Origin: Anaerolineales bacterium
GTDB lineage: Bacteria > Chloroflexota > Anaerolineae > Anaerolineales > Villigracilaceae
Assembly (NCBI GenBank): GCA_025056175.1
Contig: JANWWK010000090.1
Location: 1-64,000, forward strand
Reading direction: 5' to 3'
DNA: 64,000 nucleotides
Shown here: in pieces, positions 3,296 to 12,258 of the stretch
How positions within the stretch are numbered: the stretch's first letter is position 1
How the letters are laid out: every line of letters begins with the position of its first letter
Translations under genes and position numbers: made by a program
The notes under the pieces: generated by a model
Seen by the model: only the letters and a program-made list of their open reading frames with translations
What the model was told of the DNA's origin: nothing
Databases searched by the model: none

Positions 3296-4303
3296 ATGGA
3301 CTGGACCAACAAATCTGTACTCGTCACCGGTGGCACCGGCTCATTCGGCAAAAAATTTACGCAACTTTTGCTGGCCGAAAAGAACCCCAAAAAAATCATC
3401 ATCTTCAGCCGCGATGAACTCAAACAACATGAAATGCGCGTGCGCGGCTTTGATGACCCGCGTCTGCGCTATTTTATCGGCGATGTGCGCGACCGCGACC
3501 GCCTGTTACGCGCCATGCATGGCGTGGATATCGTCGTCCATGCCGCTGCCCTCAAACAAGTGCCGGCCTGTGAATACAACCCAATGGAAGCCGTTAAAAC
3601 CAACATCCTCGGCACCGCCAACGTACTCGAAGCCGCGCTGGATGCCGGTGTGAGTAAAGTGTTAGCGCTCAGCACCGACAAAGCTGTCAGCCCGGCCAAC
3701 CTGTATGGCGGCACCAAACTCGTGGCCGAAAAACTTGTCATTCAATCCAACAACTATGCCGCCGGGTCAGCCACCCGCTACGCTTGCGTTCGTTACGGCA
3801 ACGTGGTCGGTTCGCGTGGCTCGGTCGTGCCGCTTTTCCTCAAGCAGCGCGCCAGCGGCAAAATTACCATCACGGATGAGCGCATGACGCGCTTCTGGCT
3901 CTCGCTCGAAGAAGGTGTCCATTTCGTCATCCGGTGCATCGAACAAATGGAAGGCGGCGAAGTCTTCATCCCCAAAATTCCCAGCACCAAAGTCATTGAC
4001 CTGGCACGCGCGATTGCTCCCGAAGCCCGCCTCGAAATCATCGGCATTCGTCCTGGCGAAAAACTGCACGAAGAGCTGCTCTCTGCCGAAGAATCTCGCA
4101 ATGCCGTAGAACGCGAGACGATGTACGTTATCAAACCGCCCGAAACGCTCTGGAACCGCAACCAGCACTACGAAGGCAAGCCCCTGCCCGAAGGCTTCAG
4201 TTACACCAGCGATACCAACACCTGGTGGCTGGATGTAGAAGGCATTCGCAAATACATTGCGCCCTTTGAGGAAGCCTTTGCGAATGGCACGCTGGAAGGA
4301 TAG
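3296..4303 (+). CDS. pseB: UDP-GlcNAc 4,6-dehydratase (inverting), PseB/FlaA1 type
   Basis: A 335-residue short-chain dehydrogenase/reductase. It has the NAD(P)-binding TGGTGSFG motif (residues 11-18), the PseB/FlaA1-type STDKA (126-130, with the Asp-Lys pair used in catalysis) and YGGTK (137-141). The enzyme converts UDP-GlcNAc to a UDP-4-keto-6-deoxy hexose with C5 inversion, the first step to pseudaminic-type nonulosonic acids and to some N-acetylated deoxyhexoses. Length is normal for the family. It starts the surface-polysaccharide operon, with a GGAG ribosome site before the ATG. The next dedicated enzymes (PseC aminotransferase, PseH, PseG) are not in this window, so the final product may differ from pseudaminic acid. 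Confidence 0.9.
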   Translation: MDWTNKSVLVTGGTGSFGKKFTQLLLAEKNPKKIIIFSRDELKQHEMRVRGFDDPRLRYFIGDVRDRDRLLRAMHGVDIVVHAAALKQVPACEYNPMEAVKTNILGTANVLEAALDAGVSKVLALSTDKAVSPANLYGGTKLVAEKLVIQSNNYAAGSATRYACVRYGNVVGSRGSVVPLFLKQRASGKITITDERMTRFWLSLEEGVHFVIRCIEQMEGGEVFIPKIPSTKVIDLARAIAPEARLEIIGIRPGEKLHEELLSAEESRNAVERETMYVIKPPETLWNRNQHYEGKPLPEGFSYTSDTNTWWLDVEGIRKYIAPFEEAFANGTLEG

Positions 4304-4394: not shown

Positions 4395-5324
4395 ATGGCA
4401 CGCATCCTGGTTACTGGCGCCTCTGGCTTGCTTGGTCTCAATCTCTGTTTGGGGAATTGGGACTCTCATTCTATCCTTGCGGTAGACCGCGGAAAACTGC
4501 ACCATACGCCCTTTGAGGTCGTGCGCGCCGACCTGACCAGGCTGGAGCAGGCTCGCCGTTTAATCGAAACCATCCGCCCCGATGCCGTGATTCACGCTGC
4601 CGCAAATGCTAATATCGACTCCTGTGAAAGCGACCCCGAAGGCGCACGTTTGCTGAATGGAGAGATTCCCGGCATTCTGGCCGAATCTGCTGCGCGTGCC
4701 GGCGTGCGCTTCCTGCACGTCTCCACCGATGCGGTTTTCGATGGAACCAAAGAGGGGTTTTATGTAGAAACCGACACTCCCAACCCGCTTTCGGTCTATG
4801 CCCAGACGAAGCTGCTCGGCGAACAGAACGTGCTTGCGGCCAATCCACAGGCCATTGTGGCGCGAGTCAACTTCTTTGGCTGGAGTCTTTCCGGCACGCG
4901 CTCGCTTGCTGAGTTTTTTTTCAACAAATTATCCGCCGGGCAGGCGGCAAATGGCTTCACCGATGTCTATTTTTGTCCGCTCTTTGTTGCACATGTATCG
5001 GCGCTTCTGATTCAGATGCTGGAGGCTGGTCTTTCAGGCGTGTACCATGTTGTCGGACGTGAAGCACTGAGCAAATATGAATTCGGGGTACGCCTGGCGC
5101 GTCAGTTCGGGTTCGACGAACGCCTGGTCATCCCCCAATCGGTGGAACAGTCTGGCCTGAAGGCGCGCCGGTCGCACAACTTGCGGCTTTCTACCCACAA
5201 GTTATCCACCGACCTGGGAACAGAAATCCCCGCGCTTTCCACTGGAATCGCGCAGTTTTATGCACAATATCAGCAGGGTTATCCACAGAAAATACGGAGT
5301 TATGCACAGGTTGGTCAGGCGTAA
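4395..5324 (+). CDS. RmlD-like sugar-nucleotide reductase (SDR superfamily)
   Basis: A 309-residue extended SDR protein. The dinucleotide-binding motif TGASGLLG is at residues 7-14, STDAVFDG at 110-117, and the catalytic YAQTK at 135-139. The pattern is that of RmlD/StrL dTDP-4-dehydrorhamnose reductases; Bacillus SpsK is a relative in a similar cluster. It likely reduces a 4-keto sugar nucleotide made by a dehydratase such as the adjacent PseB. No clear Shine-Dalgarno site precedes the ATG. The last 25 or so residues are Tyr/Gln-rich and are encoded by a group of DnaA-box sequences (see 5191-5308), so this tail may be shaped by DNA-level selection. Confidence 0.8.
   Translation: MARILVTGASGLLGLNLCLGNWDSHSILAVDRGKLHHTPFEVVRADLTRLEQARRLIETIRPDAVIHAAANANIDSCESDPEGARLLNGEIPGILAESAARAGVRFLHVSTDAVFDGTKEGFYVETDTPNPLSVYAQTKLLGEQNVLAANPQAIVARVNFFGWSLSGTRSLAEFFFNKLSAGQAANGFTDVYFCPLFVAHVSALLIQMLEAGLSGVYHVVGREALSKYEFGVRLARQFGFDERLVIPQSVEQSGLKARRSHNLRLSTHKLSTDLGTEIPALSTGIAQFYAQYQQGYPQKIRSYAQVGQA
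5191..5308 (+). promoter_or_regulatory. Cluster of DnaA-box sequences inside the end of the reductase gene
   Basis: Three matches to the bacterial DnaA box TTATNCACA lie on the plus strand at 5258-5266 (TTATGCACA), 5279-5287 (TTATCCACA) and 5300-5308 (TTATGCACA). Each start is exactly 21 bp from the next, i.e. two helical turns. A near match, TTATCCACC, is at 5202-5210 and a weaker CTACCCACA at 5191-5199. All face the same way. The region ends about 60 bp before the NeuB-like gene. No dnaA, dnaN or AT-rich unwinding element is nearby, so a DnaA-titration or regulatory site is more likely than an origin. Confidence 0.6.
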
Positions 5325-5370
5325 TATGCAATCATCCCCTTTTGCTTGAGAATCCCTTCAGGAGGAACCT

Positions 5371-6435
5371 ATGGAATTCAAAATCAACAACCGTCTCATC
5401 GGCCCAAACCATCCTACCTATTTCATCGCTGATATTGCCGCCAATCACGATGGCTCGTTGGAGCGCGCCAAACTGCTCATTCGCCTGGCAAAAGAAGCCG
5501 GCGCCGATGCCGCCAAATTTCAGCATTTTCAGGCGCCCAAAATCGTTTCGGAATACGGCTTCAGCCACATGAACAGCAAAGTCAGCCACCAGGCCAAATG
5601 GAAGAAATCGGTCACAGAAGTATATGCCGCGGCCTCTCTTCCGCAAGATTGGACACCAATTTTGAAGGAAGAGTGTGATAAGGTCGGGATTGACTTCTTC
5701 ACCTCACCTTACGATTTCGATTCTATCGAACATGTAGACCCCTACGTGCCGGCTTACAAGGTTGGCTCTGGCGAAATTGACTGGATTGAAACACTGGAAC
5801 ACATGGCAAGCAAGGGCAAGCCGATGATTATTGCCACCGGCGCCTCGACGATTGGGGAAGTGCAGCGCGCCGTTCACGCCATTTTGCGGCTGAACCGACA
5901 ATTGTGCGTGATGCAGTGCAACACGAACTACACCGCCAGCCCCGAAAATTACGACCACATTCACCTTAACGTCTTGAAGACCTATGCCACCATGTTCCCG
6001 GATGTGGTGCTGGGACTTTCTGACCATACGCACGGAAACGCTACCGTGCTGGGCGCCGTGGCGCTGGGGGCGCGCATGATTGAACGTCACTTTACCGATG
6101 ACAATGACCGCGAAGGACCTGACCACAAATTTGCCATGAACCCCGATGCCTGGGCGCACATGGTGGAAGAGACCCGTTTACTGGAACGTGCGCTTGGTTC
6201 TGCTGACAAATTCATCACCGGCAATGAACAAGAGACGGCCATCGTTCAGCGCCGCTGTTTGCGCGCCGCACGCGACATCCGTGCGGGCGAGGTGTTCACC
6301 CGCGAGATGATTGACGTTTTGCGCCCGGCCACCCCCGGCGCCATCAAACCCGACCAGATTCAAAACGTCATTGGCACGCGCGCGCTGACCGACCTGCCCA
6401 AAGGCAAAGAACTGCGCTGGACGGATTTGGGATAA
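5371..6435 (+). CDS. NeuB/PseI/SpsE-type nonulosonic acid synthase
   Basis: A 354-residue two-domain protein. The N-terminal TIM barrel carries FIADIAANHDGS (about 18-29), YKVGSGEIDW and GLSDHTHG, as in sialic/pseudaminic acid synthases that condense phosphoenolpyruvate with a 6-deoxy or N-acetyl hexose. The C-terminal part (about 295-354, RAARDIRAGEVFTREMIDVLRP) is the SAF antifreeze-like domain. Family length is normal. An AGGAGG site sits 6 nt before the ATG. Together with PseB and the SpsF-like transferase it implies synthesis of a CMP-activated nonulosonic acid, but which acid (pseudaminic-, legionaminic- or spore-coat-like) cannot be told. Confidence 0.85.
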   Translation: MEFKINNRLIGPNHPTYFIADIAANHDGSLERAKLLIRLAKEAGADAAKFQHFQAPKIVSEYGFSHMNSKVSHQAKWKKSVTEVYAAASLPQDWTPILKEECDKVGIDFFTSPYDFDSIEHVDPYVPAYKVGSGEIDWIETLEHMASKGKPMIIATGASTIGEVQRAVHAILRLNRQLCVMQCNTNYTASPENYDHIHLNVLKTYATMFPDVVLGLSDHTHGNATVLGAVALGARMIERHFTDDNDREGPDHKFAMNPDAWAHMVEETRLLERALGSADKFITGNEQETAIVQRRCLRAARDIRAGEVFTREMIDVLRPATPGAIKPDQIQNVIGTRALTDLPKGKELRWTDLG

Positions 6436-9782: not shown

Positions 9783-11264
9783 ATGCACACGATAACACGT
9801 TGGGTTCGCGGGCTGATTGCCTGGCTTGAGGAAGCTTTCTTTGCAGAGAGCGGCCATCAGCCATCTGCGGTTCAGACAGGCGGCTTGCTCGGCTTGTATG
9901 CAGTGGGAATTTTTCTGTGGGGCAAAGTGTTCGAGTGGGGCAAAGCCCCGCTCGATTTCTTCGATTGGGCGCTCATTAACATCCCGCGCCTGTCGTTCGT
10001 GCGCGATTCCATTTTGGCGGGCGTTTTGCCGTTACACATGCGCGACACGGCTTCGCTGCATGATGTCACCAACCGTTTCCTGGCTTTGCCAGACGTCATC
10101 ACAACGCCGCAAATGTTGTTGATGAGATTTTTCTCCGTTTCGGAATACGTTTTTTTCGATGTCCTGCTGCACTACAGCCTGGGTTTTTTGGGGCTTTTGT
10201 GGTTTTACCGCAAGTTTCATCTCTCGCTTTACACGTTTTCCTGGCTGTTCTTCTTGTTTGGTTTCAACGGTTACATTGTTGCTCATTACAGCGTGGGGCA
10301 TTTCACGTGGGCTGGCTATTTTCTGTTTCCCTTTTTCTTCGCGCTCGTCCTTCAACTGTTTGAAGCAGGGCCTTCGTGGCGCTGGGTTTTCCAGTTCTCA
10401 CTCCTGTTTTTCTACATGATTCTGGCTGGCTCGCAACATCATTACGTCTGGCTGGTGTTGTTCCTGTTCTTTCTGGCACTTATCTCCTGGAAACATCTGC
10501 CCTGGCTGGCGGCGGTGGTGTTCTTCTCTGGGATGATGAGCGCCATCCGCCTGTTGCCGCCGGCGTTGGAGCTGGGCGCGTTTACCACCAAAGGAAATTT
10601 TCTGGCTGTTTTTGGGTATCCCTCGCTGGGGCATCTGTTGCATGCCATGCTTTTCCTTCAGGTGCCGCTGGAATCGCCGGTGACGTATCATTCCCTGAAC
10701 CTGTATGCTGAAAACTTTTGGGACTTCAATTTCTACCTGGGCATGGCCGGTACTGGCTTTGTTCTGGTTTTTGGGGTTTATTTCTGGCTCAAAGAACGGG
10801 AGATGCCCTTCAAGCAGATGGTGTTTCCGGCTCTGATGGTGCTGGCGCTGGGAATCGACTCGACTTACTGGCTGTTTCGGCTGACGGGTGTTCCCCTGTT
10901 TGCCAGTGAACGTGCCATCATGCGGATTGTTGCTGTCCCGATGGTTTGTTTTATGCTCATGGGTGCAATCGCGTTTCAGCAATGGTGGAAAAGAGCCAAT
11001 CTCACCAGCGCGCACAAATTGGCCGCGCTGGTCTTGCTGGGGTATCTGGTTATTGATTTGTGGGCGCACCTGAAAATCTGGCGTCCGCGTGAAATTAAGG
11101 CGTACTTTCCGCCGGTTGCTTTCGAGTTGCCGCCGCATTCGATTGCGATTGTCCACGACCCTGTTTATCTGAACGTCCTGCTGGCTGGCTTGCTGCTTAC
11201 CCTGGCAACGATTGCCGTGCTGGCGGGTTTATCATTTTACGAACAGAGAAAGAAACATGCGTAA
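9783..11264 (+). CDS. Polytopic membrane protein of the glycan operon (YfhO/GT-C-like)
   Basis: A 493-residue protein with about ten to twelve hydrophobic segments rich in Phe, Trp and Leu, ending in a short basic tail (EQRKKHA). Large extracytoplasmic loops such as the one with PLHMRDTASLHD recall YfhO-like/GT-C membrane glycosyltransferases, but no catalytic motif can be named. It starts 1 bp after the upstream gene and overlaps the next by 8 bp, so it is co-translated with the glycosyltransferases. It could also be a flippase or polymerase of the repeat unit. Confidence 0.55.
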   Translation: MHTITRWVRGLIAWLEEAFFAESGHQPSAVQTGGLLGLYAVGIFLWGKVFEWGKAPLDFFDWALINIPRLSFVRDSILAGVLPLHMRDTASLHDVTNRFLALPDVITTPQMLLMRFFSVSEYVFFDVLLHYSLGFLGLLWFYRKFHLSLYTFSWLFFLFGFNGYIVAHYSVGHFTWAGYFLFPFFFALVLQLFEAGPSWRWVFQFSLLFFYMILAGSQHHYVWLVLFLFFLALISWKHLPWLAAVVFFSGMMSAIRLLPPALELGAFTTKGNFLAVFGYPSLGHLLHAMLFLQVPLESPVTYHSLNLYAENFWDFNFYLGMAGTGFVLVFGVYFWLKEREMPFKQMVFPALMVLALGIDSTYWLFRLTGVPLFASERAIMRIVAVPMVCFMLMGAIAFQQWWKRANLTSAHKLAALVLLGYLVIDLWAHLKIWRPREIKAYFPPVAFELPPHSIAIVHDPVYLNVLLAGLLLTLATIAVLAGLSFYEQRKKHA

Positions 11265-12207
11265 AGGACAAAATCCTGCCAAGTTCCTCAAAGAAGTTGC
11301 CAAACCGCAGCGAATTACCGTTGCGGTACTGAATTACATCCCCTTCTTGAGCGGTTTCTACGCAGAAGGGTTAGAGGTTCTCAAGGTCTCGCTCGAATCC
11401 ATGCGGCAGGACGCCGGCTTACCTTTCGACTTGATGGTGTTCGATAACGGCTCCTGCCCGGAAGTGCGCGATTATCTGCTCGGCGAGAAGGATGCCGGAC
11501 GCATTCAGTATCTGATTCTTTCAGAAAAAAATCTTGGCAAGGGTGGGGCGTGGAACATCATACTGGCGGGTGCGCCAGGCGAAATCATTGCCTATTCCGA
11601 TAGTGATATTCTCTATTACCCTGGCTGGTTGTCTCGTTCGGTTGAATTGCTCGAAACCTTCCCAAATGTGGGCATGGTCACGGCACGGCCTTTCCGCACC
11701 AACCCGGAATATCACAGCGCCACCCGCGCGTGGGCGCAGCAGCATGCCTTGCTGGAAGAAGGTCAGTTCCTTCGCTGGGAAACCTTTTGGGAGTTTAACC
11801 GTTCGCTGGGACAGGACGAAGCCGAAAACCGTAAAATTTACGCCGAAACGTGCGATTGGCGCATTACCTATCAGGGCAAGACGGCAATGGCTGGTGCTTC
11901 GCACTGGCAGTTCGTGGCTTATAAAGCCGTCCTGGCGCAGTTCCTGCCCTTCGATATGGATAAACCCATGGGACAGGTGAAGCAGCTCGACCAGCGTATG
12001 AATGCCGCTGGCTATTTGCGTTTGATGGTGAGCGACCCGCTGGTGATGAATCTTTCTAACACCACAGAATATGTGCGCGGCGTGTATGCCAGCCCGCAAC
12101 CTGCAGGCCGGCGGCCTGGTTTGCTCAAGCGGCTGGTGCAGTTGCCACCGCTCAAAAAGGCTTTGCTGGCGGTGTACGACCAGATTTTTCGGTGGTATTA
12201 TGCCTGA
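11257..12207 (+). CDS. GT2 family glycosyltransferase
   Basis: A 316-residue GT-A enzyme. It shows RITVAVLNYIPFL (first strand), LMVFDNGSCPEVRDYL, KNLGKGGAWN and the metal-binding IIAYSDSDILYYPGW (the DxD motif of GT2). I start it at the ATG at 11257 rather than the ORF-track position; this leaves an 8-bp overlap with the upstream membrane protein. It is the last gene of the operon and lacks a membrane segment, so it probably acts on the cytoplasmic face and adds a sugar to a lipid-linked acceptor. Confidence 0.85.
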   Translation: MRKGQNPAKFLKEVAKPQRITVAVLNYIPFLSGFYAEGLEVLKVSLESMRQDAGLPFDLMVFDNGSCPEVRDYLLGEKDAGRIQYLILSEKNLGKGGAWNIILAGAPGEIIAYSDSDILYYPGWLSRSVELLETFPNVGMVTARPFRTNPEYHSATRAWAQQHALLEEGQFLRWETFWEFNRSLGQDEAENRKIYAETCDWRITYQGKTAMAGASHWQFVAYKAVLAQFLPFDMDKPMGQVKQLDQRMNAAGYLRLMVSDPLVMNLSNTTEYVRGVYASPQPAGRRPGLLKRLVQLPPLKKALLAVYDQIFRWYYA

Positions 12208-12249: not shown

Positions 12250-12258
12250 TTATCCACA
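12250..12258 (+). promoter_or_regulatory. Single DnaA-box sequence before the S41 protease gene
   Basis: TTATCCACA, the consensus DnaA box, lies 5 bp before the GGAGG ribosome site of the protease gene. About half a match of this exact 9-mer is expected by chance in 64 kb on both strands, so alone it means little. It is listed because of the cluster at 5191-5308. Confidence 0.25.

Follow-up and report, generated by a model that had tools for sequence, protein, structure and literature searches.

Why should the end of a sugar-nucleotide reductase gene carry a regular row of DnaA boxes? The gene (4395–5324, + strand) lies in a 64,000-nucleotide stretch of Anaerolineales DNA, referred to here as the window, and encodes an RmlD-like protein of 309 residues. 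Residues 3–293 match PF04321 (RmlD_sub_bind) and residues 294–309 form a box-encoding extension. Upstream is a conserved neighbour, given for context only, a gene for a Polysacc_synt_2 (CapD/FlaA1-type) dehydratase (3296–4303, + strand). The usual downstream neighbour encodes a NeuB-family synthase (5371–6435, + strand), and its presence does not track that of the boxes. The order dehydratase–reductase–NeuB is common to much of the taxonomic order.

The box array and its conservation

Three core boxes of the TTATNCACA type lie on the + strand in steps of exactly 21 bp, as the original prediction had stated: box 1 (TTATGCACA, 5258–5266), box 2 (TTATCCACA, 5279–5287) and box 3 (TTATGCACA, 5300–5308), at offsets −21, 0 and +21 from box 2. 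Box 2 is the most conserved, being identical in 77 of 88 loci, while box 1 reads TTATACACA in most relatives. The near matches predicted further upstream were also recovered on the + strand. The site TTATCCACC (5202–5210, offset −77) has one mismatch, is usually TTATCCACA in relatives and lies within one mismatch in 71 of 101 loci; the weak site CTACCCACA (5191–5199, offset −88) has two mismatches, is CTATCCACA in some relatives and lies within one mismatch in nine loci. A degenerate site at offset −44 (5235–5243, + strand) is TTTTCCACA or TTCTCCACA in 35 relatives and a poor match in the source genome. Since sites at −77, −44 and −88 recur in relatives, the near matches at 5202 and 5191 are part of the same architecture. 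Every box sits inside ORF 4395–5324, within its last ~45 codons, and core boxes 2 and 3 map to the C-terminal extension, outside the Pfam domain. Elsewhere in the window, an isolated exact TTATCCACA occurs on the + strand at 12250–12258, just 3′ of a glycosyltransferase ORF (11212–12207).

The low probability of such a triplet arising by chance was borne out. By whole-genome count, TTATNCACA occurs 63 times in the 3.57-Mb source genome and its reversed control 27 times. From the genome rate of TTATNCACA, we estimate that about 6e-6 same-strand triplets within about 50 bp would be expected per genome. The exact 21-bp box pair is found at two places in the source genome, the reductase tail (as two overlapping pairs) and G000:C87:72954, and the reversed-control motif forms no 21-bp pair across that genome. 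Given the genome-wide scarcity of TTATNCACA and the confinement of the pair to two places, the triplet is not reasonably a product of chance.

Of 61 related genomes, 60 carry an orthologue of the reductase (E ≤ 0.001; the weakest matches are paralogues). We compared 88 loci, comprising orthologues from the source genome's family and from named Anaerolineales genomes. All three core boxes are present at offsets −21/0/+21 with at most one mismatch each in 73 of these loci, two in 13 and one in 2, and at least two of the three are kept with exact 21-bp spacing in 86. A scan of 400 genomes of the order recovered the strict triple pattern in 39, every one from the source genome's family, with zero reversed-control matches. 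In families f6, f7 and f8 the reductase tail has boxes too, at a different spacing; those of f8 (L142, L144) lie in both orientations at 12-bp spacing, unlike the 21-bp array. Family f13 has only a degenerate remnant, in the orthologue comparison the tails of f5, f9 and f12 are without boxes, and some core boxes have decayed in genus g9. Genomes without the gene, for example G024 and G032, carry only the box cluster near spoVS described below. Hence they apparently do without the array, which would not be essential unless these assemblies are incomplete. Box 3 is consistently non-consensus, reading TTATCAACA rather than TTATNCACA in 65 of the 88 loci, with the source genome (TTATGCACA) as the exception; TTATCAACA is perhaps a weaker site.

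Selection on the DNA of the array

Taken over 30 orthologues, the final 60 codons contain 69 exact boxes, against 2.5±1.6 expected under synonymous recoding (maximum 10 in 2,000 recodings), and the remainder of the gene contains 2 against 3.1 expected, with no excess. Box codons have a mean synonymous excess of 0.91, compared with 0.09 for codons upstream of residue 255; none of 100,000 random codon sets equalled the box codons. The box codons are frozen, as exemplified by CCA (30/30), TAT (29/29) and AGT (25/25 Ser codons at residue 302). Amino acids vary at the N of the box (T/A at residue 290; Q/A/S/P/T at residue 304), while the silent sites are invariant. These sequences show selection acting on the DNA of the array. 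The original prediction had staked itself on conservation in close relatives, and in the alignment of related genomes the boxes are indeed kept while amino acids vary.

Orthologues share the tail residues FY-Q, GYPQ and SY-Q, as would be expected if Y-x-Q repeats were kept for the protein, or by chance, with the DNA motif as a by-product. This explanation is extremely improbable, however, because synonymous codons are frozen, the array continues in non-coding DNA and residue variation falls exactly at the box N. We infer the converse, that the sequence of the reductase tail is dictated by box codons, with the protein paying for the overlap. The Tyr/Gln-rich tail that had been singled out as odd can thus be explained as a by-product of the codons TAT NCA CAG.

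In genus g9 and some other genera, the array runs on past the stop codon into intergenic DNA, with orientation and helical phase unchanged. Across 90 loci, the 220 bp after the stop contain 78 exact boxes, against 0.39 in shuffled sequence, and box orientation in the extension analysis is 148:9. Helical phase was assessed after near-identical loci and the tandem-repeat locus L263 had been dropped, giving R=0.86 at 10.55 bp, a value reached in 0 of 5,000 random placements. The extension therefore supports the claim that the boxes, spaced at two helical turns (21 bp), are phased on one face of the DNA. A minisatellite origin of the array was rejected, since in most loci the inter-box spacers are not alike and the phasing is obtained without L263. 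L263 itself has 21-bp tandem repeats with DnaA-box-like units (TTATGCACAGCATACACTGCG, TTATCCACAGGATACACTTCG) in the array extension, downstream of the gene. Such repeats also occur at unrelated loci of G001 (L154, 1695–1779 and 2144–2196; L155, near 1430–1560). These box-bearing repeats may represent a minisatellite that is spreading and contains the palindrome TATCC-ACA-GGATA.

The box pair at putative origins

In the source genome's family, the pair TTATNCACA-N11-13-TTATNCACA is found in the reductase tail and typically in a single further cluster, most often ~450 bp from spoVS; its reversed control has zero matches in 61 genomes. In sampled loci of six outgroup families (f2, f3, f4, f10, f11 and f15), the 21-bp pair adjoins dnaA, a position that is the usual context of oriC. 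The putative oriC of the source genome (G000:C87:72954–73282; L035 1501–1829) is flanked by a nucleotidyltransferase gene and spoVS and is not beside dnaA, a placement shared by most of the family. The presence of the pair beside dnaA in six families and at spoVS in the source genome's family suggests that the origin moved away from dnaA in the latter. The complete genome G018 has a GC-skew switch at spoVS (504.9 kb), where values go from −0.046 to +0.046, and a reversal near 2.4–2.65 Mb; its dnaA lies about 2.5 Mb from spoVS along the map. Skew in G133 and G016 broadly agrees with this, that of G023 is noisy, and the signal is weak overall. The DnaA of the source genome retains GGRDHTTV, the canonical DNA-binding-domain motif. 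From the pair's placement at dnaA and at the spoVS skew switch, together with this motif, we infer that the 21-bp pair marks origins throughout the order and that the same arrangement is repeated in the reductase tail.

These comparisons argue that DnaA very probably binds the array. Conservation of the boxes, frozen codon choice, their continuation into non-coding DNA and the recurrence of the pair at putative origins all support the proposed identity. A different protein might instead recognize the repeated TTATNCACA sites. This is very unlikely, though, given that identical sequence and the 21-bp pair occur beside dnaA in the six outgroup families and at the GC-skew switch in the source genome's family, and that DnaA has its canonical DNA-binding motif.

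The array itself was rejected as oriC because skew switches near spoVS instead and an AT-rich block is absent. GC skew keeps its sign across the array, clearly in G016 and with a weaker signal in G018 and G133. No AT-rich unwinding element lies beside the boxes, where GC is 0.43–0.59 across 5150–5450. Cumulative skew had been proposed as a way of excluding an origin, and in the relatives' genomes the sign changes near spoVS, not at the array. The statement that no dnaA or origin features are near is correct within the window: dnaA lies on a different contig and the putative oriC on C87.

The gene lies 74–465 kb from spoVS, about 3–10% of the genome, in the 11 genomes with both on one contig: G085 (74 kb), G016 (107), G247 (156), G282 (197), G197 (228), G133 (236), G349 (329), G018 (354), G183 (375), G023 (417) and G250 (465). 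Three of these are single-contig assemblies, and so their distances are free of contig-length bias (354 kb of 4.40 Mb in G018, 236 kb of 4.13 Mb in G133 and 228 kb of 3.97 Mb in G197). The replichore side of the array varies among genomes. In array-free f9 genomes, the gene is 41 and 52 kb from a 21-bp pair. The origin-proximal position of the gene therefore probably preceded the array and is perhaps ancestral for the operon, and since box-free f9 shares it, origin proximity is weakened as independent evidence.

A candidate replication-control locus

We consider it rather probable that the array is an origin-proximal replication-control locus, acting by titration or datA-like inactivation and embedded in coding sequence. 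The titration role put forward in the original prediction is supported by the conservation, frozen codons, non-coding extension and shared 21-bp pair. Clustered consensus boxes outside oriC beyond chance (here 74–465 kb from the predicted oriC) and conservation by selection on DNA, which mark the DnaA-box cluster (DBC)/titration class, are both found at the array. In the proposed mechanism, the ~115 bp that end the reductase gene would serve as a cis-acting, one-direction DnaA-box array on one helix face. Binding of ATP-DnaA to it is probably cooperative and head-to-tail, as at its share of oriC. Being origin-proximal, the array would be duplicated soon after initiation, and the duplicated array would sequester DnaA, restraining re-initiation. 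It may also promote DnaA inactivation, as E. coli datA does. No Rfam match indicative of an RNA element was found at the array.

The original prediction had also proposed regulation of neuB, linking glycan synthesis to replication. DnaA on the array would then be a transcription factor or a roadblock that adjusts the capD–rmlD–neuB surface-glycan operon to the cell cycle. The core boxes are 63–113 bp upstream of the neuB start in the source genome, the array stays inside this operon and DnaA is known to act as a transcription factor elsewhere (PMC8203912). Yet at many array loci (for example L006, L007, L009, L012, L021–L023, L025 and L032) neuB lies >300 bp further downstream or could not be located in the next 1.5 kb, whereas f9, f5 and f13 have an adjacent neuB and no intact array. 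Moreover, no sigma-70-like promoter was found at 5150–5450, and the boxes do not go together with a conserved gene or promoter downstream, as they would at a DnaA-regulated promoter. With the array kept where neuB is displaced and not intact in certain families where it is adjacent, regulation of neuB is disfavoured, and we regard it as unlikely while allowing it some weight.

Replication control through DnaA-box clusters has precedents. E. coli datA, which has five boxes, is a cluster outside oriC, origin-proximal and conserved across strains (PMC4585315, PMC5295017); in being such a conserved cluster, the Anaerolineales array is like it. However, datA is non-coding, whereas the core boxes here lie in ORF 4395–5324 and only the extension in g9 and some other genera is non-coding. 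datA also requires IHF (PMC4585315), which has its site between the DnaA boxes; matches to the IHF-type consensus WATCAANNNNTTR (≤1 mismatch) are absent from the array, the nearest being at 4919 and 5817. The regular 21-bp phasing is a further difference. Hence, although the array would act in the manner of the DBC/datA class (PMC5295017, PMC4585315, PMC12371093), without an IHF-like site and with its coding location it is not classed as a datA. In B. subtilis, joint deletion of the DBCs causes early initiation, that is, they sequester DnaA (reviewed in PMC5295017). Those clusters are likewise outside oriC, but there are six at various loci, compared with one dominant array in one gene, across many genera and with frozen codons, in Anaerolineales. 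The concentration of boxes near E. coli oriC as a titration device (PMC12371093) is diffuse and involves many boxes, in contrast to a discrete ordered array.

E. coli DARS1 and DARS2 are chromosomal sites outside oriC with a three-box core (PMC4585315), and in these respects they resemble the array. They are non-coding, unlike the core of the array, and reactivate ADP-DnaA. DARS-like reactivation, or bridging of the locus to oriC to organize the origin region, would suit phased one-direction arrays that are origin-proximal and whose box number can exceed that of oriC. The computed features do not separate such a purpose from titration or datA-like action, but head-to-tail order is closer to datA and oriC than to the DARS core, and we consider this use of the boxes quite unlikely.

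DnaA sites within genes are also on record, as in vitro peaks in B. subtilis (PMC4447404) and as three internal boxes in E. coli ftsQA that have no role in ftsZ transcription (PMC8203912). The latter indicates that boxes in genes are not automatically functional. The Anaerolineales array shares the coding location and adds conservation across many genera and locked codon choice. The literature searched contained no account of DnaA arrays in Anaerolineae or of DnaA arrays that lock codon choice, an absence that is no proof, and nothing on control of initiation in Anaerolineae. Such control is poorly known outside E. coli and B. subtilis, and a single conserved phased array offers a concrete site for testing the titration model in a deep-branching phylum. 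The 21-bp pair is in turn a practical origin marker where oriC is often not beside dnaA. The array is also a case of a DNA-binding requirement dictating the codons, and even the amino acids, of an unrelated enzyme.

We advance more tentatively, as a serious candidate, a fuller account of titration or inactivation at a locus overprinted on a gene. Phased DnaA binding would have written the reductase C terminus, the array would have spread past the stop in some genera (up to about a dozen sites) and it would be the main DnaA-sequestering or -inactivating site in organisms where no Hda-like protein was found. A PF00308 search of 12 genomes returned DnaA and DnaC/IstB-like ATPases with no clear Hda among the frames examined (all but a short one in G013), which is compatible with reliance on DNA sites. 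A second PF00308 match in the source genome was rejected as Hda-type, its sequence being that of a tandem DnaC/IstB-like ATPase. At G000:C47:3624–4025 (L002), a 531-aa protein has two tandem AAA ATPase domains resembling DnaC/IstB-type loaders, and similar frames are present in other genomes of the order.
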